Shown here: one piece after another, positions 25,747-40,044 of the stretch
Position numbering within the stretch: position 1 is the stretch's first letter
How the letters are laid out: each line of letters starts with the position of its first letter
DNA from: Mesorhizobium australicum WSM2073
Lineage (GTDB): Bacteria > Pseudomonadota > Alphaproteobacteria > Rhizobiales > Rhizobiaceae
DNA: 64,000 bases
Assembly (NCBI RefSeq): GCF_000230995.2
Contig: NC_019973.1
Coordinates: 4,788,001-4,852,000, forward strand
Direction of reading: 5' to 3'
Translations under genes and position numbers: made by a program
The notes under the pieces: model-generated
Seen by the model: the letters and a program-made list of their open reading frames with translations, nothing else
Databases searched by the model: none
What the model was told of the DNA's origin: nothing

Positions 25747-26217
25747 ATGTCGTATCATCGCATCGTCAAATCCGTGCAGTCTTCATCCCAGCATGTGTTC
25801 CTGTCCGCCGCAGCGGCCTGTGTCCTGTCGCTTGGCTCCGCGCCTGCCCATGCCGACGACTATGATGCAACCCTCAAGGACATACAGTCGACCATGGGCG
25901 GCGTCCCAAGCTTTGTAAAACAGTTTCCCAAAACCGGTCTGCCCGGTGCCTGGGCCGAGGTCAAGGCCATCGAGCTCAGCGACAAGACGGCGTTGCCGCC
26001 CAAGGTCAAGTCGCTGATCTCCTTGGCCGTGGCGGCGCAGATTCCTTGCACCTACTGCATCTGGTCGGACACGCAGGACGCCAAGCGCGCCGGCGCTACC
26101 GACGAGGAGATCGAGGAAGCCGTGGCGATGGCGGCGCTGACGCGCCACTGGAGCACTATATTCAACGGCATGCAGGTCGATTTCGACACATTCAAGAAGG
26201 AAATGGGCGGGCAGTAA
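25747..26217 (+). CDS. Exported carboxymuconolactone decarboxylase/AhpD-like protein
   Basis: A 156-residue protein with a signal peptide (about 1-36, ending PAHADD) in front of a CMD/AhpD domain. The redox motif is Cys-x2-Cys (IPCTYCIWSD), with a following ATDEEIEEAVAMAALTRHWS helix carrying the His. Such domains act as thiol peroxidase partners and are normally cytosolic, so export is unusual. AGAGGAG precedes the ATG. The last seven codons and stop form unit 1 of a 34-bp tandem repeat. Controlled, by inference, by the divergent TetR. Confidence 0.82.
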   Translation: MSYHRIVKSVQSSSQHVFLSAAAACVLSLGSAPAHADDYDATLKDIQSTMGGVPSFVKQFPKTGLPGAWAEVKAIELSDKTALPPKVKSLISLAVAAQIPCTYCIWSDTQDAKRAGATDEEIEEAVAMAALTRHWSTIFNGMQVDFDTFKKEMGGQ

Positions 26218-26329
26218 GCCCGCCGGCAAGAAGGAAATGGGCGGGCAGTAAGCCCGCCGGCAAGAAGGAAATGGGCGGGCAGTAAGCCCGCCGGCAAGAA
26301 GGAAATGGGCGGGCAGTAAGCCCGCCGGG
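26194..26329 (+). repeat. 34-bp tandem repeat, four units, spanning the stop codon
   Basis: Units begin at 26194, 26228, 26262 and 26296. Each encodes KKEMGGQ-stop and contains the hairpin GGCGGGC-AGTAA-GCCCGCC. Only unit 1 is in the gene; three more follow the stop. The four possible stem-loops in a row could protect the 3' end or act as a strong pause. It arose by tandem duplication. Confidence 0.93.
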
Positions 26330-26649: not shown

Positions 26650-26877
26650 ATGCACAGAGGACACGGGCGGCCCGACAGAGAGAAATCGGCGTTAAAAGTC
26701 ATTCCTGCGGGCCGATTCTGCCTTCTAACTTTGACTCTTGGTCTGCTCTGCGCCGCTGCCAGTTGCGACGTGGATTTCGTCCGCAGAGAGATACTGGCAA
26801 AGTATTCACGGCCAAGCGTTTATGTCTGCAGTCCCAGCGGATTTGGGCAGCAATCTCATTGCAACCTGAAGATTTGA
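26650..26877 (+). CDS. Small exported protein with C-terminal CxPSGFGQxxxC motif (copy A)
   Basis: A 75-residue protein. A basic N-terminus is followed by a hydrophobic stretch (about residues 22-38) with a lipobox-like AAAS-Cys39, then a short mature part ending VYVCSPSGFGQQSHCNLKI. Cys60 and Cys71 are ten residues apart. The same C-terminus occurs in the genes at 29503 and 35233. GAGGA lies about 8 bases before the ATG. Function unknown. It sits upstream of the UDP-xylose synthase gene on the same strand. Confidence 0.65.
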   Translation: MHRGHGRPDREKSALKVIPAGRFCLLTLTLGLLCAAASCDVDFVRREILAKYSRPSVYVCSPSGFGQQSHCNLKI

Positions 26878-27103
26878 CGCCTTCTGAATCGCTCTTCATT
26901 TCAGACAGTGCCCAGGGGCTACCCACCCCAATGATCTCACAAGGACACTCCGCCCTGTTCCTCGACATCAGGCTTTTGATGGCTCCCGAGAAGAGATCGC
27001 GGCAGCCTGTGAAATTTGCTTGGATCGAGCCAATATGCTGATTCAAAATGAAGAACCCCGGCCGTGGCCATCCGCGCCCGCGCCGGGAACGCGTCGGCCA
27101 TGA
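26878..27103. other. Non-coding gap between copy A and the uxs control region
   Basis: No gene supported. It leads into the conserved promoter module at 27104. Confidence 0.4.
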
Positions 27104-27174
27104 TTAACCAATGGCAAACACAATGGTTAAGGAATCTCTAATTTAGTTGACTTGAATTTCCACAGGTATATTTT
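27104..27174 (+). promoter_or_regulatory. Shared glycan-locus promoter module (uxs copy)
   Basis: TTAACCA at 27104, GGTTAAG at 27125 and TTGACT at 27147, with TATTTT at 27169-27174 as a possible -10, 16 bases after TTGACT. The first two boxes form a dyad. The same boxes, at identical offsets of 0, 21 and 43, lie upstream of the GT2 gene at 37856 (minus), and a near copy precedes the GH26 gene. AATTTAG also precedes TTGACT in both close copies. Confidence 0.65.
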
Positions 27175-27370
27175 CAGGGCGTTGGGATGTGCAATTTGGG
27201 CGAGCAATCGGCGATGATGGCATGGGGCGCGTGATCGCGATCTTGGGGCGCATGGACTGCTGAACGGCAGATACAAGCCGGGCGGCAGCGGCCTCGTAAC
27301 TCAGCTAGTGACAAGCGCACATCAGTGATGGCGATCCGCGGATGCGGAGATTGCCGCGTTTAAGGACGTG

Positions 27371-27397
27371 GCCGGGCAGTGCTTTGCCCTGCCCGGC
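27371..27397 (+). other. GC-rich hairpin in the uxs leader
   Basis: Perfect 9-bp stem GCCGGGCAG (27371-27379) / CTGCCCGGC (27389-27397), nine-base loop, ending 20 bases before the ribosome site of uxs. No T run. If transcription starts near 27180 the leader is about 250 nt and ends in this stem, so an RNA-level control is possible. Confidence 0.5.
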
Positions 27398-27426
27398 GGT
27401 AGCGTGTGCGGTGCGTGGAGGAAAGC

Positions 27427-28473
27427 ATGAGTAAGGTCATCAAGGTTCTGAAACTTGGTTCCAGAAACGATCAAAGGGGCAACGGCAACGGCCATAACCG
27501 AGGCCGTGCGCTGGTCGCTGGAGGCGCGGGCTTCCTGGGATCGCATTTGTGCGAACGACTTTTGCAGGACGGATACGACGTCGTCGCACTGGACAATTTC
27601 CATACCGGCAAAAGATACAATCTCAATACGCTGCTGCGCGATCCGAGATTCAGCTGCATGGAGCACGACATCGTCGATGCATTGCCTTTGGACCTTCGGT
27701 TCGACGAGATCTACAATCTAGCCTGCCCTGCTTCTCCGCCACATTATCAGGCAGATCCGATCCATACCTTCAAGACCAGTGTGCTTGGCGCGCTGAACCT
27801 GTTGGAACTCGCGCGTCGGAACAATGCCAAGATATTCCAGGCCTCGACTTCCGAGGTCTACGGCGATCCGTTCGTGCACCCGCAGCCCGAAAGCTATTTC
27901 GGCAATGTGAACACGCACGGACCGCGCTCCTGCTATGATGAAGGCAAGCGTTCAGCCGAAACCCTTTTTTTCGACTATTCGAGGACGTATGGCCTCGATA
28001 TTCGCGTAGCCCGTATCTTCAACACCTACGGTCGTCGTATGCAACCCGATGACGGGCGCGTCGTCTCGAACTTCATCGTCCAGGCGTTGCGTGGCGAAGA
28101 CCTGACCGTCTATGGCAGCGGCCTGCAGACCCGCTCCTTCTGCTACGCCGACGACCTGATCGAGGGTTTCATGCGGCTGATGAATGCGCCGAGTGCGCCT
28201 GCCCATCCGGTCAACCTCGGCAATCCCGGCGAATTCACCATCATGGAACTCGCGACACTGGTTGTCAGCTATACCAACTCCAGATCGAAAATCGTGCATC
28301 GGCCATTGCCGATCGACGATCCCAGACAACGCAAGCCGGATATTTCCTTCGCCAGGAGCAATCTTGGCTGGGAGCCGAAGATCAGTCTGGCCCAAGGGCT
28401 CGCGCATACCGTCGACTATTTCGACGCCCTGCTCTACGGGAGCCGGATTACCAAAGGGGCCGCGGCTTCATGA
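27427..28473 (+). CDS. uxs: UDP-glucuronate decarboxylase (UDP-xylose synthase)
   Basis: A 348-residue NAD-dependent SDR that converts UDP-glucuronate to UDP-xylose. Visible: GGAGFLGSH (residues 32-40), the UXS-specific [16 protein letters not shown] (about 96-111), TSEVYGDP (141-148), and the catalytic Tyr170-x3-Lys174 (CYDEGK). An unusual basic, Gly/Asn-rich N-terminal extension covers about residues 1-27. GGAGG precedes the ATG at 27427. Its stop overlaps the next start (ATGA), giving a uxs-uxe operon like that described in Sinorhizobium meliloti. Confidence 0.9.
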
Positions 28474-29501
28474 GCCAGCCGCCAGTCCTGGTGACAGGGG
28501 GAGCCGGCTTTATCGGCAGCCATACGTGCAAGCTGCTTGCCGAGGCCGGTTATCTGCCGGTGGCATTCGACAACATGTCCCGCGGCAATCGGAAATCCGT
28601 CGCCTGGGGTCCGCTTGTCATCGGCGACATCCGCGACCGGGATGCATTGCAGGCGGCGATCGAAGCCTATCGGCCCGCATCCATCATACACTTCGCGGCG
28701 CTTGCTTATGTTGGAGAGTCCGTCGGTCAGCCGGCCGAATACTATTCCACCAATGTCACGGGCACCATCGCCGTACTCGACGCCGCACGCGCGCATTCGA
28801 TCGAGAACATCATCTTTTCCAGCAGTTGCGCAACCTACGGCGTTCCGGAAGCACTGCCTATTCGTGAGACCTCTTCGCAAAATCCGATCAGCCCGTACGG
28901 GCGCACCAAGCTGATAGGCGAACAGATCATCAGCGACTATGCCAACGCATACGGAATGAAGTTCGCCATCCTGCGCTACTTCAATGCCTGCGGGGCCGAT
29001 CCCGACGGGGAGCTCGGCGAGTGGCATTCGCCGGAAACGCATCTGGTTCCCAGGGTGCTGATGGCGGCGTCAGGCATCATCGACGAGGTCGAGGTCTTCG
29101 GCACGGATTATGAGACATCGGACGGGACTTGCGTGCGCGACTACATCCACGTCAGCGATCTGGCCCGCGCCCATTTGAAAGCTCTCCAACATTTGGAGGG
29201 CGGTGGACAAAGCCTGGCGGTCAACCTCGGCACCGGGCGAGGCGTGTCCATCAAGGAGATTGTCCAGGCGGTCAGCCGGATGACGTCAAGACCTGTTCCG
29301 GCCGTCTTCAGGGCCCGGCGCCCGGGAGATCCGGCCGAACTCTATGCCGACCCGAGCAAGGCGCGCGCGCATCTTGGCTTTGTGCCGCAGCTTTCCGACA
29401 TCGACACGATCGTCAGGACCGCCGCCCCATTCTTCGGGCTGCGGACGAAACCGGTGATACTGCCACCAAGCGACGGCGCGGTAGCGGTCGCTGCTCGATA
29501 G
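28470..29501 (+). CDS. UDP-sugar 4-epimerase, probable UDP-xylose/UDP-arabinose 4-epimerase (GalE family)
   Basis: A 343-residue extended SDR with GGAGFIGSH (10-18), SSSCATYG and the catalytic Tyr143-x3-Lys147 (SPYGRTK). The segment [20 protein letters not shown] and [15 protein letters not shown] follow GalE/ExoB. Specificity for UDP-pentose is inferred from its overlap with the UDP-xylose synthase gene; UDP-glucose/galactose is the alternative. The product would be UDP-arabinopyranose, a substrate for the glycosyltransferases downstream. Confidence 0.82.
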
Positions 29502-29502
29502 A

Positions 29503-29925
29503 TCAGAGATAGCGCGGGTGGCAGCTTGCGCGTTGGCCAAATCCGCTGGGGCTGCAGATGTAAGGCGAGCCTCCTAACAACGCACCTTCATCGACAGGAC
29601 TGAAAGCGACCTTCACGGGTCCCGTTGTGCGGATCGCGACCGGCGGTGGCGGAGCAAAAGCGTAAGTTCTTTCAGTGGTGCGGATAGTCCTTGTCATCAG
29701 CACCTCAGGCTCGATCCTGAGCGAACGCACGATGTATCCAGCCTGGACCGGTCGGACTGAAGGCTTGCTCCGGAGCGGATGCGCGACCGGTGCAATGAGG
29801 ACGGAACCGGTTCTGGTCGTATCCATCCCCTGACATCCTGCAACCAGAGAGGTCATCGCCACCACAACAATAGAGAGAGCTTTCTTGCTTAGGCGAGAAG
29901 CGCCCATTACGGAATTGTTCCCCAT
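29503..29925 (-). CDS. Lipoprotein with C-terminal CxPSGFGQxxxC motif (copy B)
   Basis: A 140-residue predicted lipoprotein. The signal peptide ends in LVAG-Cys31, followed by QGMDTTRTGS, a Pro-rich middle (APPPP) and a C-terminus SPYICSPSGFGQRASCHPRYL with Cys124-x10-Cys135. AAGGGA precedes the ATG at 29925. Copy C at 35233 has the same length, the same start of the mature chain (C-Q-x-MDTT-x-TGS) and PVKV-x2-SP near the end. Function unknown; probably a periplasmic or outer-membrane accessory of the glycan locus. Converges with the epimerase gene. Confidence 0.78.
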   Translation of the reverse strand: MGNNSVMGASRLSKKALSIVVVAMTSLVAGCQGMDTTRTGSVLIAPVAHPLRSKPSVRPVQAGYIVRSLRIEPEVLMTRTIRTTERTYAFAPPPPVAIRTTGPVKVAFSPVDEGALLGGSPYICSPSGFGQRASCHPRYL

Positions 29926-30016
29926 GTGTCCCTTGCCTTTGAGTATAAGCTGGGGCGCGTTGCGACACCTGCGCCGCTTCACGCCGTTTCAGTGACCACT
30001 CGCACATCACACACAA

Positions 30017-30054
30017 ATATTAGACATCACTAATTATTAAATTTCATGAAAACC
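30017..30054 (-). promoter_or_regulatory. Conserved upstream element of lipoprotein B
   Basis: AT-rich block 92-129 bp upstream of the start. On the plus strand TTAGA (30020-30024) is followed by TTATTAA (30034-30040) and ATTTCATGAAAAC. The matching block occurs at about the same distance upstream of lipoprotein C (35761-35794). Confidence 0.5.
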
Positions 30055-30279
30055 ATATGGTGTTGGAGCCATCGTCTCGTCGTCTGTCAGAGAGAAGTGA
30101 TTGCGCCAATCGGCGGTCGGTGCGCCGACAATTCCAGCCGGACTGCTCAGCGTTTTATAAGCGATTCGCAAGCTTCTTCACAGGCCTGGCAAAAGCGGCC
30201 TGCCTGAATCCGCCCCTCCGGACACGCCGTCACCGATGTGGTATCGGGAGCGGCCAACGGAGCCAGGAACGGCGCCTGC

Positions 30280-30372
30280 CGCGGCGAATAGGATTCGCCC
30301 GACCTGCTGTAAGCTTCTGATTTCGTGCATGTCGTTGTCCCGGAACCGAGGACACTTCCGAGCCATATGCAT
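30280..30372. repeat. Interspersed repeat, copy 1 (about 93 bp)
   Basis: Begins CGCGGCGAATAGGATTCG, passes GACCTGCTGTAAGCTTCTGA and ends in a palindromic core GCATGTCG-TTGT-CCCGGAA ... ACACTTCCG ... ATGCAT. It matches copy 2 at 35129-35218 over nearly its whole length. The right arm is partly decayed. It abuts the stop of the DUF995-like gene and may act as its 3' hairpin. This type of palindrome is common in rhizobia (recalled). Confidence 0.82.
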
Positions 30373-30998
30373 CAGTTCTTGGAGTCGATCAACTTGCGGG
30401 CCTCTTCGAACCGCGCGGCCTTGGTATCACCAGATTCGAATTTTCGGTATTCGTCGGAAGGACCTTCGGGAGTTCGTTTGAAACTGTACCATTCTCCGTC
30501 CGGATCCTTGCGTTGCTCGATCGTTCCATCCTTGATTCGGTGGCTGTAGCAGGTGCGGCGCTGTTTGCCCTTGTAGCTGTTGGACCGCCAAGCGACATCC
30601 ATGCACATCTTGCCGTCTTTGGTCACCAGCCACCTGCCCTCTGCGACAGACGCTGAATCCTGCCCCGACGTCCAGGCCTCAAGGCGCCGATTGCCCTTCG
30701 CGAAATAGGCCGCTCCATTTTCCCATATCCATGTGCGATCGGCATACAGAAGCTGCAGCTCATAGGCAGTTGGAACAGTGGCGGCAATTGGAGCAATAGC
30801 GCTATCCGCTTTTGCAGGTGCGCTGTCCTTGGCGGCAGCCGCGTGGGACGTTCCCGGGAGGGCCACCTGGCCGCAGAGGGCCAGGACAAACAGGAGCAGC
30901 GTGAAACGTGCGGACCGACGACGTTCCCTGCGCCGCAGACGATCTACGCCATGCGGCGGCGACCTGGTCGGAGCTATCGGTACAATCAGCGTTGGCAT
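30372..30998 (-). CDS. Exported DUF995-like protein (copy 1)
   Basis: A 208-residue protein with an Arg-rich N-terminus and signal peptide (hydrophobic core about 32-45, cleavage near TSHAAAA). The domain, from about residue 78, has WIWENGAAYF, AEGRWLVTKDGKMC, RRTCYSHR and PDGEWYSFKR, which match copy 2 at 39526 box for box. Two conserved cysteines probably pair. The family is recalled as DUF995 (rhizobial, unknown function). The exact start is uncertain because no ribosome site is seen before 30998. Confidence 0.72.
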   Translation of the reverse strand: MPTLIVPIAPTRSPPHGVDRLRRRERRRSARFTLLLFVLALCGQVALPGTSHAAAAKDSAPAKADSAIAPIAATVPTAYELQLLYADRTWIWENGAAYFAKGNRRLEAWTSGQDSASVAEGRWLVTKDGKMCMDVAWRSNSYKGKQRRTCYSHRIKDGTIEQRKDPDGEWYSFKRTPEGPSDEYRKFESGDTKAARFEEARKLIDSKN

Positions 30999-31190
30999 GT
31001 CTGTGCGGCCCAGGGCAGCGCTATCGGCGCGACAGCCTTTGCGAATTATTTAACAGCCGCGGGAGCTGCGATGTCAACTTTCGCGGCGCCCGCTGTCGCC
31101 AAAATTAAGGATTGCGTCGTATACTCCCTCGCCTTTGACAATCGCGCGCAAAAGCAACATCCGCAGACGTCAGAGAGGACGCGGTTCCAA

Positions 31191-32816
31191 ATGGGCGACG
31201 ATCCGGAATTGAATCAGGCCGAGGTTCAGCAATACCTGCAGCAGCCGATCGCTCGGGACCCGGCTGCTCGCAATTACCTGAACCTCGACACGGCGATCTT
31301 GCTGGGGATCCTGTTCATCGCGGTCGTGTTCAGGTTCCACAACATAACCTTGCCGCTGGTCGACGCTTTCAGCTGGCGCGAGACAAGCACGGCAATGATG
31401 GCCGACAATTTTCAACAGCGCAGCTGGAACATCTTCTTCCCGGAGGTGAGTTGGACCGGACCCGGCCCGAGTTATCAGGGCCGCGAGTTCCAGATCGTCA
31501 GCTATCTGACCGCCCTGCTCTACCAACTCTTCGGCTGGCACGACTGGTTTGGCCGCGTGGTTGCGGCCTTCTTCGGTCTGGTGACGGTGTTTTCGCTGCA
31601 CAGGTTGACGGCGCTATGCTGGGGCCAAACGCATGCCCATGCGGCGGCGCTCGCCTACGCGCTGATGCCGGCGGCGATCATGATCGACAGCTCGTTCCTG
31701 CCCGATCCGTCGATGCTGGCACTGGTAACAACAGGCGTTTGGCTGTTCGCCAAATACTGGGCTGGCGGCAGCCGATGGCTTTTGCCGCTCGCCGCCGTCA
31801 GCTTCACGCTCGGTGCGCTGGCAAAGCCGCCGGGCGTGGCGGCGGGCGCCGTCATCTTCTACCTGATGGTGCGCTGGATTCTGCAGAAGAAACGACGGCA
31901 GGCGACCGAGGTCTTCCTGTGGGGATTTTTGAGCCTGGCCATCATCGGCGCCTATTTCAGCTGGGCCATCTATCTCGGCCGCAGCTATCCACCCTATCAC
32001 GTCGCAGGCAGCGGCTACATCTGGAACTCCGGATTGTGGACGTTCGTCAATGATGGCTTCTACTTCAAATCCGTGTGGAACACCTCTGTCTGGTGGTTCT
32101 ACGGCTATCCGTTCATGGCGCTGATCGCGGTCGGTTTCTGGATACCGCCCGGCCCCGCCGAAGACCCGACGCAGCGCACCCTTTCGGCCATTCCCTATAT
32201 TTGGCTGGGTGCGGCCATGATCGTCTACCTGGCGGCGGCGCGCGAAATCACCAGCAACCCCTGGAATTACCACATTTTCCATGTGCCGTTCGCGATGTTC
32301 TGCGGCCGCGGCGCGCTTCTTCTGGCAACGTTTGCATCGGGAACCGTTCTGTCGCCGGTCGTGCTGCGTTCGATCTGTATCGTTGTCGTGACCCTCGTGT
32401 GGTCGACCTTTCCTCTCGTGAGGACAATGAAGGCGCCGGTCGCGATGAACGGCAAGCTGCTCGGCGAGGAGTTGGCGCGGTTGGCGCAACCGGGCGACCT
32501 CGTCGTGGCCATCGCGCCGGAGGTCGGCGATCCCGTCGCCGTCTACTACAGCAGGGCACGCGGCTGGGTGTTCCCGCCTGGCGGAGGCGATGTCGAATGG
32601 TCGAAATTCGTCGCGGACGACGCCACCGCGATCGCTCAGCTCGAGGAGTTGCGCGGTCAAGGCGCGGATCTGTTCGGCACGGCCAAGAACGCTGCCGACA
32701 ATCAGGACCAGTTGTTCATCGAGCATCATGGGGGGGTCGTCGACTATCTGGACAAGACCGCAACCAAGCTTGTGGATTCGGATGCTTTGCTGGTCTATAG
32801 GATCACCCGTCCATGA
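31191..32816 (+). CDS. GT-C glycosyltransferase, ArnT/PMT (GT39/GT83)-like
   Basis: A 541-residue multipass membrane protein that would transfer a sugar from a polyprenyl-phosphate donor on the outer face of the membrane. The first periplasmic loop after TM1 has the GT-C signature VDAFSWRET (Asp58, Arg63, Glu64). About 10-11 TM helices follow, then a soluble C-terminal part from about residue 430. The ATG at 31191 is chosen because it leaves a short cytoplasmic tail; 31071 is an alternative with GGGAG upstream. It is followed by the flippase-like and GT2 genes on the same strand. Confidence 0.78.
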   Translation: MGDDPELNQAEVQQYLQQPIARDPAARNYLNLDTAILLGILFIAVVFRFHNITLPLVDAFSWRETSTAMMADNFQQRSWNIFFPEVSWTGPGPSYQGREFQIVSYLTALLYQLFGWHDWFGRVVAAFFGLVTVFSLHRLTALCWGQTHAHAAALAYALMPAAIMIDSSFLPDPSMLALVTTGVWLFAKYWAGGSRWLLPLAAVSFTLGALAKPPGVAAGAVIFYLMVRWILQKKRRQATEVFLWGFLSLAIIGAYFSWAIYLGRSYPPYHVAGSGYIWNSGLWTFVNDGFYFKSVWNTSVWWFYGYPFMALIAVGFWIPPGPAEDPTQRTLSAIPYIWLGAAMIVYLAAAREITSNPWNYHIFHVPFAMFCGRGALLLATFASGTVLSPVVLRSICIVVVTLVWSTFPLVRTMKAPVAMNGKLLGEELARLAQPGDLVVAIAPEVGDPVAVYYSRARGWVFPPGGGDVEWSKFVADDATAIAQLEELRGQGADLFGTAKNAADNQDQLFIEHHGGVVDYLDKTATKLVDSDALLVYRITRP

Positions 32817-32997
32817 GAGCTGCGACAGCTGTGGGCCTTGACAGGATATGGCCCGACGGCTCAGCGGCCACGCATCCGCCCCGCGGAAGGCCGGCAAGGC
32901 GGTGGGCCAGGCGAACCGCCCCAGGATGACGCCTTGGACGTTCAGTCGCCACGATGCCGCCGCTGGAACTGGGCGGTGAAAACCGGCGGAGAATTGG

Positions 32998-33924
32998 TTG
33001 AAAAGAGCAATCTCGATAATGGTGACGCTGGCCCTGCTGGCTTGGCTGGCAAGCGACTCGCGCTGGCGGATGGTCGGCGATGCCTTCGACCGCATCACGC
33101 CAGCTACGTTCGCGGTGGCGACGATCGCCTTTTTCGTCACCTATGTCTTGCGTGCGCTACGCGTCTGCGACGAGTTCCGCGACGAGGTGAATGGCCGTTT
33201 CGGAGCCTGCCTGCGCGTCATTCTGATCCACAATGCGATGATCAACGTCGTACCCTTCCGGGGCGGCGAGACGGCCTTTCCCTTGCTCCTGCGCCAGGTC
33301 TTCGGCGTGCCGATCATGCGCGCCAGCGCCTCGCTGCTGTGGTTCAGGCTGCAGGACGCTTTCGTCGTCGGCGTGCTGGCGCTGGCGGTGTGGCCGGGCC
33401 TGCATGCGGCGATAAGGATCGCTGGAATCGCCGCCTTGATCGCTGCCGCCTGGTACCTGCCGCGCTGGGCGCGCGCGCCGCATGACTGGGCCGGGCGCGG
33501 CAGGATCGTGGCGAAGCTCGGCCTGCTGCGCGACACCTTCACCGAGGCGACCGGGCGCTCGCGTTACGGCTGGTGGTGGACGATCGCCAACTGGTCGCTG
33601 AAGCTCGCCGTGCAGGGATGGCTGCTGGCCCTGATACTGGGAACATCCTTCACGACGGCGTTTCCAGGCGTCGTCGGGGCCGAAGGCGCCGCAATATTGC
33701 CGGTGCAAGGCGTCGCCGGCTTCGGCACTTATGAAGCGGGAGCGGCGGCGGCACTGCTCACATCCGGAATTGCGATGAAGAGCGGTCTGCAGGCGGCCCT
33801 GGCGCTGCACCTGTTCATCTTCTGCTCGGCTATCGCCACCGGCGCTATAGCCTGGCTGTTTCCCTCGAAATCGACGCTGCCAGGGACTCCGGCCGTCGGA
33901 CCTGCAAGGAAGCCATCCCAATGA
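32998..33924 (+). CDS. Flippase-like / LPG-synthase-TM-domain membrane protein
   Basis: A 308-residue protein with about seven to eight TM helices resembling the PF03706 group, conserved around VVPFRGGETAFPLLLRQ and VQGVAGFGTYEAG. Such proteins often accompany polyprenyl-linked glycan genes and are thought to move lipid-linked intermediates. The start is TTG at 32998 with GGAG six bases upstream; the ATG at 33019 has no ribosome site. Its stop overlaps the GT2 start as ATGA. Confidence 0.75.
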   Translation: MKRAISIMVTLALLAWLASDSRWRMVGDAFDRITPATFAVATIAFFVTYVLRALRVCDEFRDEVNGRFGACLRVILIHNAMINVVPFRGGETAFPLLLRQVFGVPIMRASASLLWFRLQDAFVVGVLALAVWPGLHAAIRIAGIAALIAAAWYLPRWARAPHDWAGRGRIVAKLGLLRDTFTEATGRSRYGWWWTIANWSLKLAVQGWLLALILGTSFTTAFPGVVGAEGAAILPVQGVAGFGTYEAGAAAALLTSGIAMKSGLQAALALHLFIFCSAIATGAIAWLFPSKSTLPGTPAVGPARKPSQ

Positions 33925-34970
33925 ACATATTGCCCATCCCCGCTTCGGGGCTGCCTGAGGGCGCGATGATGCCGGACCATACGCTGTCCATCGTCGTGCC
34001 CATGTACAACGAGGCCGAAAACGTCGAGCCGCTGCTGACGCGGATTCACCAGGCGATGGAGCGCTACGAGCAGCCGTGGGAGGTCGTGCTGGTCGATGAC
34101 GGCAGCACCGACGCGACGGTGAGCGAGATCAGGCGCCTGGCTGCGCATTATGGCCCGCATGTGCATGCGGTCGAACTCGTGCGCAATTACAAGCAGACCG
34201 CCGCGATGCAGGCCGGCATCGACGCGGCGCGCGGCGATGTCATCGCCACGATCGACGGCGACCTGCAAAATGATCCCTTCGACATCCCGCGCATGGTCTA
34301 CCGCCTGCTGAGCGAGGATCTCGACTTGGTGGTCGGCTGGCGCAAGGACCGCCAGGAGGGGCTTTTGATGCGCAGGCTCCCTTCGCGTATCGCCAATGCG
34401 CTGATCGCGCGCGTCACCGGCGTGCGCCTCAAGGACTATGGCTGCAGCCTCAAGGTCTATCGCGGCAGCGTCATCCGCAGCGTCAAGCTCTATGGTGAGA
34501 TGCACCGTTTCATCCCGGCATGGCTGGCTACCGTGACGACCCCCAGACGCATCGCGCAGGAGGTCGTGACGCATCATGCCCGCATCCACGGCCAGTCCAA
34601 ATACGGCATTTCGCGCACCTTCAGGGTCGTGCTCGATCTGGTGTTCATGTATTTCTTCATGCGCTATCGCACACGGCCCGGACATTTCTTCGGTGGCATC
34701 GGCATCACGCTTGGCGCGCTAGGTTCGCTGATACTTGCCTATCTGCTTTGCCTGAAGCTGTTTTTCGCGCAAGACATCGGAACACGGCCGATGCTGTTCA
34801 CTGGCTTCTTTCTGCTGATCGCCGGAGTGCAGATGGTGACGTCGGGCGTGCTGGCGGAAATGCTGGCCCGCGTCTATCACGAGGCAAACGGATCATCGGC
34901 CTATGTCGCGCGGCCACGGCCGGCGCCCGACGACGATGACGGCTGGCTCCGCCCGAGCCGGCCTTCATGA
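33921..34970 (+). CDS. GT2 polyprenyl-phosphate glycosyltransferase (ArnC/DPM1/GtrB-like)
   Basis: A 349-residue enzyme with a cytosolic GT-A domain and two C-terminal TM helices (about 240-300). Motifs: SIVVPMYNEAENV (23-35), VLVDDGSTD, the metal DxD in DGDLQNDP (Asp112, Asp114) and HGQSKYG. This architecture transfers a sugar from a nucleotide donor to undecaprenyl phosphate. With the UDP-pentose genes it suggests a UDP-pentose donor (inference). It would feed the GT-C enzyme two genes upstream. Confidence 0.88.
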   Translation: MNILPIPASGLPEGAMMPDHTLSIVVPMYNEAENVEPLLTRIHQAMERYEQPWEVVLVDDGSTDATVSEIRRLAAHYGPHVHAVELVRNYKQTAAMQAGIDAARGDVIATIDGDLQNDPFDIPRMVYRLLSEDLDLVVGWRKDRQEGLLMRRLPSRIANALIARVTGVRLKDYGCSLKVYRGSVIRSVKLYGEMHRFIPAWLATVTTPRRIAQEVVTHHARIHGQSKYGISRTFRVVLDLVFMYFFMRYRTRPGHFFGGIGITLGALGSLILAYLLCLKLFFAQDIGTRPMLFTGFFLLIAGVQMVTSGVLAEMLARVYHEANGSSAYVARPRPAPDDDDGWLRPSRPS

Positions 34971-35128
34971 GGAGATCGGAACGCCAGGGATATTCATGGC
35001 CACGAGCCCGTGGCGGTCGAAGGGCAAGAGATAAGGCGCAACCCTGCGCCCACCTCTCGCCCTCGACTCGCGCCCCCAGCGAAGACCTCGGCGGCAGCCC
35101 TCGGTCAGGCACCGCCACTTACACATGT

Positions 35129-35218
35129 CGCGGCGAATAGGATTCGCCCGACCTGCTTTAAGCTTCTGATCTGCATGTCGTTGTCCCGGAACCGAGCACA
35201 CTTCCGGGCGACATGCAT
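35129..35218. repeat. Interspersed repeat, copy 2 (about 90 bp)
   Basis: Same element as 30280-30372, here with an intact palindrome: GCATGTCG-TTGT-CCCGGAA ... TTCCGGG-CGACATGC (35173-35216). It lies 14 bp beyond the stop of lipoprotein C, between convergent genes, where it could work as a two-way transcription stop. Confidence 0.85.
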
Positions 35219-35232
35219 TTAGGTCCAATGCT

Positions 35233-35655
35233 CTAGTAACGCGAACGGCAGCTGGCGCGCTGGCCGAAACCGCTCGGGCCGCAAATCCAGGGCGAATGCC
35301 CCAGGAACTGACCGCCATTGCCCGGGCTGTAGGAAACCTTCACCGGTGCCGGCCTATCAATCCGTTGCGGCCGCACGAAGGCCGCGTAGGCCTCCTCCCT
35401 GGTACGCGTCACGACGCTCATCTGTGTAAGCGGTTTGCGGTAGAGAAGCTTTGTCTTGACGTGATGGACCTTCCCAGCGTGATGGGCCATTTTGCCGAAC
35501 CCGTAGTCGATGGTTCGCCCGTTGATCGAGCCGGTCTTGGTTGTATCCATGGTCTGGCAGCCGGACACCATCGAGACGAGCACAAAAGCAGCAACAGCAC
35601 AGGTATATTTTCTGCCGTTGTTGGCCAAATGTTCCATAACCCTGTTCATCTGCAT
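35233..35655 (-). CDS. Lipoprotein with C-terminal CxPSGFGQxxxC motif (copy C)
   Basis: A 140-residue predicted lipoprotein: signal peptide with lipobox VSG-Cys33, then QTMDTTKTGS, a His/Lys-rich middle, PVKVSYSP and the C-terminus SPWICGPSGFGQRASCRSRY (Cys125-x10-Cys136). AAGGG lies 7 bases before the ATG at 35655. Clear paralogue of copy B, with equal length and shared upstream element. Function unknown. It lies between the lipid-carrier glycosyltransferases and the processive synthase. Confidence 0.8.
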   Translation of the reverse strand: MQMNRVMEHLANNGRKYTCAVAAFVLVSMVSGCQTMDTTKTGSINGRTIDYGFGKMAHHAGKVHHVKTKLLYRKPLTQMSVVTRTREEAYAAFVRPQRIDRPAPVKVSYSPGNGGQFLGHSPWICGPSGFGQRASCRSRY

Positions 35656-35760
35656 CTCTCTACCCTTAAACATAATTCGGTTATGTGCGGGTGATATACT
35701 TTATAGTCGGCTTCTTTCCGCACTTTTTAAGTGATCATCGCCACTCAATCTGCATACGTA

Positions 35761-35794
35761 TATTAGAACGAACTTATTAAAATTCGTGCAAACA
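35761..35794 (-). promoter_or_regulatory. Conserved upstream element of lipoprotein C
   Basis: TTAGA (35763-35767), TTATTAA (35774-35780) and AATTCGTGCAAAC on the plus strand, 106-139 bp upstream of the start. Corresponds to 30017-30054 at lipoprotein B, with a 3-base difference in spacing. Confidence 0.5.
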
Positions 35795-35975
35795 GCATAA
35801 TGAACACAGTCTTTCGGTGTTCGTTCGAATATGATGAAAATTCGATTGATTGGATCGGAGCCTGGCAGGGCGCGTGGGGTGCTTCGGCAAACGAAGCCTC
35901 CGCACCGGTGGCAACGACGGCGATCGGCGCTCAGGCTGGCAGAGTCGAAGGGCTGTTGCAGGTGTTAGGGGACGC

Positions 35976-37856
35976 TCAGCGCTGCGTTTCCCAACCTGGA
36001 TCGAAGTAGAAATTGCGGGCGCCGATTTCGCCCATGCCGGCGCCCGAAACTGGGAAAGCCATCTTGACGAGATGAACGGCGCCGGCACCCTGCTGCAGTC
36101 CGTAAATGCCCTCCAGGCCGCGGCCGTAAAAACCCGCGAGCGGAGCCGTTAAAGCCACGCCGGCGAGCGAAGCCTGCAAGACAAATTTGCCGATACTTGG
36201 CCGAAGGGAAATCTTGTTCTCGGTGACGTGCTTGGCAATGATCACGATGGTCAGCAGGCTATATAAAGCTGCATTGAACGCGGCGAACCAGTAAAAACCC
36301 GTGGCGCTCTGCGGATTTTGTACAAGGAGCACGGGCAACGACGCACCGACGGCAAGCGCCACATAGGGGATGACGACACGAACCGGCAGGAGATCCTTCG
36401 GGCCGCGGCCCTTCGGTGTGACGCGAAAATCGACAAACGATTTGGTCAGATAGTCGCGGACGGCCGACAGCGTGCCCGCCAGCACCCACGGCCAGCGCGC
36501 GAAGAAATGAAACAGCATGCCTTCCCAGCTGAGTGCCTTGGCCGTTACCGGTCGTGAGAGCGCGAACGCCTTCAACATCATCACCAAGACGATCGGCGTA
36601 ACCGAACTCGGCGCGTAGTGGAGAATGAAATCCAGATACGTCACATTGGCGAAGTTCCGGCCAGAAAACAGCGCGTAGATCGGCATGAGATACGTGGAGA
36701 GCGCGAGCAGTGCGAACAGCGGGTACCAAAGCTGGCAGAAAACGAACTGCAACCTCAATCGCAACCTCAGCTTGGAGAGATACATGGGCGAGTATTCGAG
36801 CAGGATGGTGGTCAGGCTCCTCGACCACTGGAATTCCTGAGTGACGAGGTCGGCGAAAGTCTGTGGGCCATCACCGTGCGCAATGGCGTCGATTGCATGC
36901 ACGCCGCGCCAGCCCCCCGCGTTGATCAGCATGGAGGTCGAGTGGTCTTCGGCCAGTTCTGGGCCAAGCCCGCCCGCCTGCTTCAATGCGGCGGTGCGCA
37001 CTGCATAGTGCGAGCCTATGCACAGTGGCGCTCCGACGCTCGTGTAGCCCGACTGCAGCAGGCCGTGCAGCATTCCCTCCACGAACAGTCGGCCGCGGGC
37101 CGACCAACTCTCGGCGGCATTGTTGTCGCAAATGCTCGGCGCCGAGACGTAGCCGACAGCGGGATCGGCGAAGGCCGCCAGCATCTCGCGCAGATAGGTC
37201 AGCGTCGGCACGTGATCGGCGTCCATCTGGGCGACGAAGTCGTAGCGTTCATAGCCGTAGTGATCATAGAAGAACGCGAGATTGCCTTCCTTGCAACGGG
37301 TTCGGCGCGGCCAGGTCTTGCGATGATAGTCTTCCCGGCCTCGCCGCGTCGAAATCTGGATGTTTCGCGCCTCGCACCATGCGATCGTCTCCTCGGAAGG
37401 GTCCTCGTCGGCAAGCCAGGTGTCGTGAGGATAATCCTGCGCAAGCATCGCCTCGAGCGTGCGCGCAACCACGAAAAACGGTTCGGATGGCGCTTTCGTC
37501 ACCACCATCGCCACCCTCGAACTCGCGGCGACCGTGTAAAATTTGGACGGCCTTTTCGACACAAGCACGAATAACAGGAAATACATCGGCATCAGCGTCA
37601 GCCAGGCCAGCACCGTCGTCGCGAAGGCGTATGGCCCGATGTACTCGACATGCTCGGGCCTTAGCCACCAGATCCAGAAAAAACCGAGCGTGACGAACCA
37701 GAATGCCAGCGCCAGCCTCAGGATCCATTGCTGAGCGGCAGACAGGACGGGAACCAGAAAAGGGCCCTTCTGCGCCGCCTTGGCCAGAGCCGCCCGAGAC
37801 CGGCGTTTCGGCCTGTTCTTACCGCTGATGGTCGCTACGTCCGCGGAAACACTCAT
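35976..37856 (-). CDS. Processive GT2 glycan synthase (cellulose-synthase-like)
   Basis: A 626-residue membrane enzyme: two N-terminal TM helices (about 45-100), a cytosolic GT-A domain and five to six C-terminal helices. Catalytic features: WLADEDPSE (Asp150), the DxD in MDADH (Asp212, Asp214), LAEDHST (Asp304, the catalytic-base position) and QEFQWSRS (340-347), a variant of Q-x2-R-W. This marks a processive beta-glycan synthase that also moves the chain out. No PilZ domain or bcsB is seen. It is divergent from a secreted GH26-like hydrolase, and its promoter carries the shared module. The polymer is unknown. Confidence 0.85.
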   Translation of the reverse strand: MSVSADVATISGKNRPKRRSRAALAKAAQKGPFLVPVLSAAQQWILRLALAFWFVTLGFFWIWWLRPEHVEYIGPYAFATTVLAWLTLMPMYFLLFVLVSKRPSKFYTVAASSRVAMVVTKAPSEPFFVVARTLEAMLAQDYPHDTWLADEDPSEETIAWCEARNIQISTRRGREDYHRKTWPRRTRCKEGNLAFFYDHYGYERYDFVAQMDADHVPTLTYLREMLAAFADPAVGYVSAPSICDNNAAESWSARGRLFVEGMLHGLLQSGYTSVGAPLCIGSHYAVRTAALKQAGGLGPELAEDHSTSMLINAGGWRGVHAIDAIAHGDGPQTFADLVTQEFQWSRSLTTILLEYSPMYLSKLRLRLRLQFVFCQLWYPLFALLALSTYLMPIYALFSGRNFANVTYLDFILHYAPSSVTPIVLVMMLKAFALSRPVTAKALSWEGMLFHFFARWPWVLAGTLSAVRDYLTKSFVDFRVTPKGRGPKDLLPVRVVIPYVALAVGASLPVLLVQNPQSATGFYWFAAFNAALYSLLTIVIIAKHVTENKISLRPSIGKFVLQASLAGVALTAPLAGFYGRGLEGIYGLQQGAGAVHLVKMAFPVSGAGMGEIGARNFYFDPGWETQR

Positions 37857-37943
37857 AAACGTACCGCCGCCACTCTAAGCGTCAGCCGAAGACGGCCGAC
37901 AACCTTCAACCCCGGCGCCAGAATCCATCGCAAATTTATTAGA
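37857..37943. other. Leader of the GT2 synthase gene
   Basis: Gap to the promoter module. The whole synthase-GH26 gap (37857-38470, 614 bp) has no gene and holds two outward-facing copies of the module. Confidence 0.5.
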
Positions 37944-37992
37944 GTCAACTAAATTAAGAGCTTCTTAACTATGCTTCTTGGGAACTGGTTAA
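37944..37992 (-). promoter_or_regulatory. Shared glycan-locus promoter module (GT2 copy)
   Basis: On the minus strand: TTAACCA (37992-37986), AGTTAAG (37971-37965) and TTGACT (37949-37944), with offsets 0, 21 and 43, identical to the uxs copy. The 14-base string TAATTTAGTTGACT is shared exactly. TTGACT lies 88 bases before the start codon. Confidence 0.68.
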
Positions 37993-38130
37993 CCTAGCGC
38001 CTTTGAAGCGCCGGGCCGATCCGGCGGTCGCGTGCGCCCGACCAGCGCTGGACAGGCAAGCCGGACGTTTTGCGTTGAGGAATTCACCGAGAGGGGGATG
38101 GTCCCCATGTCTGGATGAGGACAAGCAGCG

Positions 38131-38181
38131 TTAACCACGTTGCGAGCGCCAAGGTTAAGCAACCGTTAATTGTGCTTGACT
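38131..38181 (+). promoter_or_regulatory. Shared glycan-locus promoter module (GH26 copy)
   Basis: TTAACCA (38131), GGTTAAG (38153) and TTGACT (38176), with offsets 0, 22 and 45. This is the most divergent of the three copies, lacking the AATTTAG word but keeping TTAATTG before TTGACT. It is 290 bases from the start codon, so a long leader is predicted. Confidence 0.55.
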
Positions 38182-38470
38182 CTTGGCCCCGACCGGCTCT
38201 TAAATTAGCTAGGGATGATATATCGGGATGTTGACGCGAATTTGTGAGTATCGCGGCGAACTTTCTCTCTGAAGCTCTTCAGTATCGGAGCCTTGAGGGA
38301 TAATTTTGGGTGGGTCCGTGCAAAGTTCGCACACTCGCCAATGGTCGCTCCGAAATCCCGCAGATTACGCCAATAGAGCCGATGGGTGTTGGATGGGCGT
38401 GTCGATCAGGCATCGACGCGCCGGGCGAAGCCTTGGCTTTCGTAGGAAGTCGGGCCTTGGGAGGCAAACA

Positions 38471-39394
38471 ATGAAACGCTCCGCAGCAAATGCGCTTGTA
38501 GTCACGCTGGTTTTGGGCGGAAGCGCCGCGTTCCCCACGGCGGGAGGCGCCGGCTCCGTCCCCGTGACGGACCCCGTTCAGACGAGCAGCGCCGCGTCGG
38601 CATTCGGGTCGTACGATCCGTATGGCGATTTCACCAATGACAAGACCGCCAGCATCGAGGAACTGTTCCTGCCTTGGGAAGACGTCGATTTATCGACGCT
38701 GCCTCTGGCCGATGCTTATGCCCAGCAGCGCGGGCGCTCGCTGTTGATCACGATCGAGCCGTGGACCTGGTCGAAGGACTGGCGCATCACCCCGCCCGAG
38801 CTGCGAGACGGCATATTGGGCGGCAGATATGATGCCAATATGCAGGCGATCTGCGGCTTGGTGGGACAGATGAAAAGCCCGGTGACCATTCGCTGGGCGC
38901 AAGAAATGGAAGACAAGAACGGTCGCTTCACCTGGGCCAACTGGGCACCGAAGGACTGGATTTCCGCCTACAAGCGCGAAGTCGATATCTGCCGCAAGGC
39001 CGCCCCCACGGCCAAATATATGTGGTCGCCCAAAGGCGATGAAGGCTTGGAAAAATACTACCCTGGTGACGACTATGTCGACGTGATCGGCCTGTCGGTG
39101 TTCGGCCTGCAGAAAAAGGACAACGACGAGGCCGGTCACGACCGTACGTTCGCCGAGTTGCTGAAGCCAGGCTATGATCGCGTTGCGGGGTTCAACAAGC
39201 CGATCGTGGTGGCGGAACTCGGCTATGTCGGCAAGCAGGACTATGTTTCGAAGTGGCAGGACGATTCTCGCAAGTCCTATGCGGAGTTCCCGGCGCTGAC
39301 TTCAGTTGTCTACTTCAACCAGAAGGAAGTGTGGCCGTGGCTGGGGGGCTATGGTCTGCCCGACTGGAGGGTGACCCAGCACGTCCTGCCGTAG
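38471..39394 (+). CDS. Secreted GH26-like glycoside hydrolase
   Basis: A 307-residue exported protein (hydrophobic signal about 6-27). The TIM-barrel pair of acids fits GH26: Glu145 in IRWAQEM (acid/base) and Glu249 in PIVVAELG (nucleophile). WANWAPKDWISAYKREVDICRKAAP and DYVDVIGLSVFG are also GH26-like. Family members cut beta-mannan, mixed-linkage glucan or xylan. GGAGG precedes the ATG at 38471. Divergent from the processive GT2, it probably trims or releases that polymer (inference). Confidence 0.82.
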   Translation: MKRSAANALVVTLVLGGSAAFPTAGGAGSVPVTDPVQTSSAASAFGSYDPYGDFTNDKTASIEELFLPWEDVDLSTLPLADAYAQQRGRSLLITIEPWTWSKDWRITPPELRDGILGGRYDANMQAICGLVGQMKSPVTIRWAQEMEDKNGRFTWANWAPKDWISAYKREVDICRKAAPTAKYMWSPKGDEGLEKYYPGDDYVDVIGLSVFGLQKKDNDEAGHDRTFAELLKPGYDRVAGFNKPIVVAELGYVGKQDYVSKWQDDSRKSYAEFPALTSVVYFNQKEVWPWLGGYGLPDWRVTQHVLP

Positions 39395-39455
39395 ACGCGT
39401 CGTCCCGATGCGTCCCGACACGATCGGGATGGATCTCCATCTTTCTGTTTGTTTG

Positions 39456-39489
39456 CCATCCATGCCGAACCAGCGTTTCGGCATGATGG
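39456..39489 (+). other. Hairpin between GH26 and DUF995 genes
   Basis: CATGCCGAA (39461-39469) / TTCGGCATG (39477-39485), 7-base loop, extended by CCAT/ATGG across a one-base bulge. No T run. It ends 26 bases before the GGAG of the next gene. Could separate the two genes' expression or stabilise the GH26 message. Confidence 0.5.
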
Positions 39490-39525
39490 TGAGGCGTGGC
39501 GTGAATCAGTCCGTGGAGTAGTTCC

Positions 39526-40044
39526 GTGAAACGAGTGCTGGGTAATTGTCTTGGAGCGGCATTCGCCTGCTCCGTTCTTGTTCTTGCCTTACAGGTCCCC
39601 GCGACAGCCAAGACAGCGGCCAAAATCGCCGAGCAGGCGCAAAAGGGCGCCGTGGTGCCCGACGAAGGCGTCTACCAGATCTATCAGAACCGTTCGTGGA
39701 TGTGGGGCAATCACGGGGCCGCGTTCTTTGCCGTCAGGCAGCGGCAATTTAACGCCTGGTCGACGGAAAAGGGCCAGCCGGGCTATGGCGACGGGATATG
39801 GTTCATCCCCGGCGGCGGCAAGTTGTGCTACCGCGCGCAATGGCACGGCTCCTGGGGCGTGAAGGGCTCAATGACCTGCTTCGAGCATCGCCAGACCGGC
39901 AAGGCGATCTACAAGCGCAAGTCGCCTGATGGCGAGTGGTACGTTTTCAGGAGTTCGCATCGGAACCGGTCGGACGAGTCCGCGAAATTGAAATACGGCG
40001 ACTACGTCACCAGGAAACAGACACGGATCAAGGCAAGGCTTTAG
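39526..40044 (+). CDS. Exported DUF995-like protein (copy 2)
   Basis: A 172-residue protein with a signal peptide (about 1-28, ending PATAK). Domain boxes WMWGNHGAAFF, GDGIWFIPGGGKLC, SMTCFEHR and SPDGEWYVFRS match copy 1 at 30372. The start is GTG at 39526 with GGAG seven bases upstream. It lies downstream of the GH26 gene on the same strand and may be cotranscribed. Family name recalled, function unknown. Confidence 0.78.
   Translation: MKRVLGNCLGAAFACSVLVLALQVPATAKTAAKIAEQAQKGAVVPDEGVYQIYQNRSWMWGNHGAAFFAVRQRQFNAWSTEKGQPGYGDGIWFIPGGGKLCYRAQWHGSWGVKGSMTCFEHRQTGKAIYKRKSPDGEWYVFRSSHRNRSDESAKLKYGDYVTRKQTRIKARL

Follow-up and report, generated by a model that had tools for sequence, protein, structure and literature searches.

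What surface glycan would a bacterium build from a gene cluster that joins UDP-pentose supply to a lipid-carrier sugar pathway and a processive glycosyltransferase? This question is raised by nucleotides 26650-40044 of a 64,000-nucleotide stretch of Mesorhizobium australicum WSM2073 DNA (contig NC_019973.1; the whole stretch is called the window below). A first-pass annotation, made from the letters alone, had listed the parts of this locus, and the list is real: the region holds twelve genes, and every gene that had been named was found at or near its proposed position. We consider it probable, at roughly 0.6, that these genes represent the Mesorhizobium form of the locus for arabinose-containing polysaccharide (APS) of Sinorhizobium meliloti, with a dissociable cassette beside it that would decorate the polymer. 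Six of the genes are almost certainly homologous to the APS machinery, and a family of small proteins sharing a C-x10-C motif very probably supplies a further APS component. The twelve genes are as follows.

26650..26877, + strand: C-x10-C small protein A, motif C-x-PSGFG-x4-C, no match in a Pfam search; start uncertain, 26614 or 26650
27427..28473, + strand: uxs, UDP-glucuronate decarboxylase / UDP-xylose synthase (UDP-glucuronate decarboxylase in the PDB, 4e-106; 66% identical to the S. meliloti operon protein)
28470..29501, + strand: GalE-type epimerase, uxe-like (TIGR01179, 395.5 bits; 61% to the S. meliloti operon protein)
29503..29925, - strand: lipoprotein-like protein B with a C-x10-C motif
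30372..30998, - strand: DUF995 protein a, apsH1-like (PF06191, 8.1e-41, 139.5 bits; 34% to the S. meliloti protein)
31191..32816, + strand: GT-C glycosyltransferase (PMT_2), part of the cassette (PF13231, 1.1e-9); start at 31191 likely, judged from relatives
32998..33924, + strand: PF03706 membrane protein, a putative flippase, part of the cassette (1.7e-16)
33921..34970, + strand: ArnC-like GT2, part of the cassette (ArnC structures, 5.9e-48)
35233..35673, - strand: lipoprotein-like protein C with a C-x10-C motif
35976..37856, - strand: ApsS-like processive GT2 synthase (57% to the S. meliloti operon protein; cellulose synthase structures, 6.8e-19)
38471..39394, + strand: GH26 hydrolase, apsE-like (PF02156, 25.2 bits against a cut-off of 20.2; 55% to the S. 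meliloti protein); start at 38471 likely, judged from relatives
39526..40044, + strand: DUF995 protein b, apsH2-like (PF06191, 1.5e-41, 141.9 bits; 42% to the S. meliloti protein)

The uxs and epimerase genes overlap by ATGA at 28470-28473, as had been claimed, and the PF03706 and ArnC-like genes likewise overlap by ATGA at 33921-33924. Both DUF995 proteins pass the PF06191 gathering score of 20 bits. Other parts of the earlier description required correction. The synthase and the GH26 gene had been said to face each other, but they are divergent and lie back to back. Similarly, all of the small proteins had been placed between the larger genes, which holds for some of them but not for one C-x10-C gene, which precedes uxs, or for one DUF995 gene, which follows the GH26 gene. 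The enzyme had also been called a second processive synthase, but a synthase query gives one match in the whole genome (6.2 Mb, one contig). Because the gene arrangement is conserved across Mesorhizobium, it is beyond what chance would produce.

When plasmids were searched by tblastn with the synthase as query, 125 records were returned, among them 77 from Sinorhizobium and 34 from Rhizobium. On S. meliloti pSymB (CP140934.1), the matching genes stand in a row: AraC regulator, UDP-glucuronic acid decarboxylase, GalE, glycosyltransferase, DUF995, GH26, and DUF995. The same genes are present in S. meliloti 2011 and 1021 at 91-99% identity. As given in extracts of two reports, the published APS operon is uxs1-uxe-apsS-apsH1-apsE-apsH2 and is activated by CuxR, a receptor for cyclic di-GMP (c-di-GMP) (PMC7902896, PMC9495663). 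In S. meliloti, Uxs and Uxe are reported to produce UDP-xylose and UDP-arabinose (PMC6024577, citing Gu 2011). We assigned the published aps names to the pSymB genes by order and gene type. The window carries homologues of all six genes of the S. meliloti operon (34-66% identical), and that operon fits the published APS gene order; therefore, we read the core of the locus as an APS locus. The earlier statement that no system with this part list has been described thus fails for these six genes, which are the published APS set.

Although all six gene types are common to both species, the Mesorhizobium form differs from that of S. meliloti in several respects. It is split into several transcription units, whereas the genes of S. 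meliloti form the single operon uxs-uxe-S-H1-E-H2, an arrangement that we did not count as part of the definition of the locus. It also has no adjoining CuxR gene, and it includes the extra C-x10-C genes and the cassette of GT-C, PF03706, and ArnC-like genes. The core is known already, and the arrangement, the cassette slot, and the co-occurrence of the C-x10-C proteins are apparently new. As had been proposed, UDP-pentose genes accompany those for a processive synthase and for a secreted hydrolase, and the combination recurs in related genomes. Among the best 80 of the 428 loci found, which make up our named loci, the closest relative of the synthase is that of Mesorhizobium sp. B2-3-12 (92%).

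Two other occurrences of APS genes deserve mention. On the conjugative S. meliloti plasmid pSmeSM11b (NC_010865.1), the operon lies between transposase genes, with no adjoining AraC gene annotated. Two stretches from the Rhizobium leguminosarum group (L188 and L190) carry a second APS-like locus, whose synthase is about 54% identical and in which a C-x10-C gene is divergent from uxs.

Loci were counted in stretches of up to about 10 kb on each side of 97 distinct synthase proteins, which remained of 110 after 13 duplicates were collapsed. Of these loci, 51 are compact and come from several genera, and 46 are split and come from Mesorhizobium records and one record titled only "Bacterium". Compact loci carry uxs (50), galE (51), GH26 (50), and a nearby CuxR-like gene (46), and within the stretches examined none of the 51 has a GT-C, PF03706, or ArnC-like gene, or a gene for either of two other proteins, SULF and ACT3, that are described below. 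No CuxR gene stands beside any of the 46 split loci. Among 101 relatives of the window's strain, a split synthase is present in 28 genomes and a compact one in seven, with both in one genome (34 genomes in total); of these 35 synthase matches, 29 were fetched at 20 kb together with the window. These and our other genome searches score part of the first-look candidates. A CuxR-like gene (51-53%) was found elsewhere in 7 of the 28 split-type genomes, or in eight if we include G034, whose copy adjoins its compact locus. Such genes are also present in nine genomes without a synthase; CuxR thus exists in the genus and is not specific to APS.

The GT-C, PF03706, and ArnC-like genes form a cassette separate from this core. 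The PF03706 protein is present at 83% identity or more in 32 same-genus genomes, 22 of which have a split synthase, and the trio is missing from 6 of the 28 split-type genomes. In 6 of the 32 genomes, the PF03706-ArnC pair has no adjoining uxs or galE (one of these, G007, was judged from a 9-kb stretch on a short contig), and in four others without a split synthase (G001, G003, G011, and G052) the pair does adjoin uxs and galE.

These patterns bear on the first-pass proposal that a single pathway serves the whole locus, in which Uxs and the epimerase feed the ArnC-like enzyme to give undecaprenyl-phosphate-pentose for the GT-C, with the synthase forming a side product. Such a pathway would account for the four synthase-less genomes that keep uxs-galE beside the pair, and for the presence of uxs-galE in all 26 complete split loci that have GT-C. 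It does not account for the six genomes in which the pair stands without uxs and galE, or for the many genera in which uxs-galE accompany the synthase without the trio. Furthermore, in several loci an extra epimerase after the ArnC-like gene may supply the donor instead. Because the two gene sets dissociate in both directions among relatives, we rejected a single pentose-to-lipid pathway for the whole locus and regard it as very improbable. The extra enzyme, an NAD-dependent epimerase about 28% identical to uxs or galE, follows the ArnC-like gene in eight loci, where it may provide the donor of that enzyme.

In the 42 complete split loci (the 46 minus four incomplete ones), GT-C is found in 26, SULF in five, ACT3 in two, and none of these in nine, with no overlap; for the separation of GT-C from SULF and ACT3, we obtained a value of 4.2e-4, relatedness ignored. 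SULF combines a sulfatase domain with CBM60, a xylan-binding domain according to Pfam, in both proteins tested, and ACT3 belongs to the acyltransferase-3 family. The genes for both follow the synthase immediately, on the same strand. A full-length GT-C occurs in 17 of the 101 relatives, all of which have a split synthase, and one genome (G032) retains 37 residues only. GT-C, SULF, and ACT3 would thus be alternative decorations of one polymer. It is plausible that the trio decorates a surface glycan, and we put the chances that this glycan is APS at about even.

A possible, less probable account is that the chromosomal site between the CMD gene and holC houses two systems that work independently. 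One, the APS genes, would make APS; in the other, the PF03706 protein and the ArnC-like enzyme, whether or not GT-C is present, would provide lipopolysaccharide or some other lipid of the envelope with a lipid-linked sugar. The model for this is Rgt, a galacturonic-acid pathway of Rhizobium that brings a lipid-linked sugar to lipopolysaccharide. Consistent with two systems, the order CMD-PF03706-ArnC occurs without APS genes at the same site in the six genomes whose pair lacks uxs and galE, and holC comes next in both stretches where it was seen. The ArnC-like and PF03706 proteins are also far more conserved (84-96%) than the synthase of split loci (70-78%), and orphan GT-C genes exist in the R. 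leguminosarum group. However, this account leaves unexplained why a full-length GT-C among the 101 relatives occurs only with a split synthase (17 of 17) and why loci without GT-C can carry SULF or ACT3 behind the synthase.

Several further observations weigh against an APS locus with a dedicated decorating cassette. The pair persists without a split synthase in 10 genomes, and outside Mesorhizobium a GT-C of 80-86% identity was found in 6 of 12 named genomes searched, all from the R. leguminosarum group; the cassette therefore has other uses. In five GT-C stretches of that group, no synthase, uxs, or ArnC-like match adjoins the gene. Two of the five carry weak SULF matches and, about 4 kb from GT-C, a GalE-like gene (53%); one of these two (L175) also keeps a 42-residue PF03706 remnant. 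SULF also occurs without a synthase, at 70% in G003 and split into two parts in G011. On the synthase tree, the five-state decoration label changes eight times, with SULF and ACT3 restricted to one clade or two, and thus the mutual exclusion of GT-C, SULF, and ACT3 rests on few events. The epimerase scores above the GalE cut-off (395.5 versus 262.3 bits, TIGR01179). Finally, a search for CuxR in the genome of the window's strain, in which 19 of 37 candidates were scored, gave nothing at 1e-15; the c-di-GMP-responsive activator of S. meliloti is thus seemingly missing, and APS control must differ there.

The cassette shares with the Arn and Rgt pathways the logic of a GT2 that acts on a polyprenyl-phosphate sugar and a GT-C, and differs in having a PF03706 protein in the place of the flippase. 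The ArnC-like protein falls below the NCBIfam ArnC cut-off (189 versus 529 bits). The other enzyme had been called an ArnT-like GT-C: its assignment to GT-C stands, but neither single-sequence nor profile searches matched an ArnT chain. The twelve genes include neither ArnA nor ArnB, and no genome search for them was made.

With regard to the polymer itself, nearly all loci have Uxs and the epimerase next to the synthase, the structure matches of GH26 include a beta-1,3-xylanase, and SULF carries CBM60. These features point to a pentose-rich product, but none of them is proof. An unlikely alternative is that the synthase makes cellulose or a mixed-linkage glucan, to which pentose is added as a side sugar, and that GH26 acts as a lichenase-like enzyme. 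The closest solved relatives would suit this alternative, being cellulose synthase for the GT2 and, for GH26, the lichenase-type Endoglucanase H, which scores about equal to the xylanase. However, the synthase fails the TIGR03030 (BcsA) cut-off by a wide distance (67.4 versus 699.1 bits) and has no PilZ match in a Pfam search. All 110 synthases carry QEFQW where cellulose synthases carry QxxRW, which suggests a different donor. The xylanase match and the CBM60 on the neighboring SULF also argue against a glucan. The remaining synthase motifs are EDH (110 of 110), DADHVP (108), and FxVTPK (100).

The GH26 assignment is supported by the Pfam score and by alignment to 2bvd, and Glu occupies both expected catalytic positions in 108 of 108 loci. 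DUF995 is present in 40 of the 101 relatives, comprising all 34 with a synthase and 6 of the 67 without, and both copies in the genome of the window's strain lie in this locus. A DUF995 model, confident outside a weak N-terminus (predicted local distance difference test 89.6, predicted template modeling score 0.78), is mainly beta-strand, and its structural matches are middling and none names a function. Bacterial cellulose systems offer a parallel, in that a processive GT2 is joined by a glycosidase and, optionally, by tailoring enzymes that have a sulfatase fold or transfer acyl groups; according to extracts of the literature, cellulose is tailored by BcsG with phosphoethanolamine or by WssI with O-acetyl groups (PMC11379886, PMC10302187). 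Here, in contrast, the synthase is far below the cellulose cut-off and without a PilZ match, and the glycosidase is GH26.

In the genomes searched, the C-x10-C proteins are nearly confined to those that have the synthase. At least one protein with the motif C-x-PSGFG-x4-C was found in all 29 fetched same-genus loci, in four S. meliloti loci, and in one R. jaguaris locus, and the corresponding frame of SM11 is not a clean gene. Among the 101 relatives, the C-x10-C protein is present in 34 of 34 genomes with a synthase and in 3 of 67 without; two of these three (G001 and G052) retain parts of it, namely leftovers of an APS locus, and the third (G098) gives a marginal match. One genome (G033) has one more weak match away from its locus. 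Among 247 genomes of the family, in which at most 19 candidates per genome were scored, the corresponding counts are 32 of 33 and 0 of 214. The Fisher values for this co-occurrence (1.9e-39 and 8.9e-24) ignore genome relatedness. The sequences in alignment A1 come from APS loci. The synthase and the C-x10-C gene lie within 10 kb of each other in 26 of the 32 family genomes and not in six.

A search of a protein collection gave 343 matches at E 0.01 among 8000 scored candidates. Among the 120 matches listed, those with names are a "hypothetical protein" or "lipoprotein" from Mesorhizobium, Sinorhizobium/Ensifer, Rhizobium, Chelativorans, or Nitratireductor, one odd label excepted. We also searched 14 named genomes, 12 of which lacked the motif in their stretch (some stretches were cut short) and two of which had it (L120 and L121). 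A copy was found in 12 of the 14, including 10 of the 12 whose stretch lacks the motif, and none was found in Microvirga L149 and Xanthobacteraceae L132. We also considered whether distant copies in the R. leguminosarum group are unlinked to APS and rejected this, because the copies in L188 and L190, the two stretches examined in detail of five fetched, adjoin the second APS-like locus. In five other genomes with distant copies, an extra GH26-like gene adjoins three (G183, G265, and G326), and no APS gene lies within about 8 kb in two (G217 and G345); the G183 copy is a profile match, and the strict motif was not found in its stretch. A second GH26-like gene (36-40%) is near a C-x10-C gene in six loci, and for two of them (L194 and L195) the stretch has no APS locus close to these neighbors. 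The two proteins possibly form a functional pair. A limited literature search found no earlier description of the C-x10-C proteins, whose lipobox-like cysteines were read by eye and not by a signal-peptide program. The family thus appears to be an undescribed, near-obligate partner of APS with a predicted role.

Under the reading that we prefer, an APS locus with a decorating cassette, Uxs and the epimerase would provide UDP-xylose and UDP-arabinose, from which the ApsS-like GT2 would build a linear glycan out of UDP-pentose-type donors and extrude it across the inner membrane. The secreted GH26 would trim this glycan, and the DUF995 and C-x10-C lipoproteins might act on it in the periplasm or outer membrane through binding, export, or anchoring. 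The ArnC-like GT2 would load a sugar onto undecaprenyl phosphate, the PF03706 protein would flip the lipid-linked sugar, and the GT-C would transfer the sugar outside, most likely as an APS side group. In some relatives, an acyltransferase or a sulfatase-fold protein would take the place of the cassette. A stronger combined proposal seems doubtful to us: that the C-x10-C protein is a dedicated APS part for outer-membrane export or anchoring with GH26 and DUF995, that APS is a beta-linked pentan, and that Mesorhizobium strains change its surface chemistry by exchanging, at a single site, the cassette that decorates it with a lipid-linked sugar, an acyl group, or a phospho-group.

These assignments link a dispersed set of genes to a polysaccharide that is already known and suggest testable roles for DUF995 and for a family of lipoproteins that apparently has no name. 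Should the decoration slot prove real, Mesorhizobium would offer a natural strain series with one backbone and differing substituents, which would be useful for relating surface chemistry to attachment and legume symbiosis. Before the start of the locus, positions 26193-26328 hold four perfect copies of a 34-bp unit, which reproduces the last part of the CMD gene, stop codon included, together with a GC-rich palindrome.

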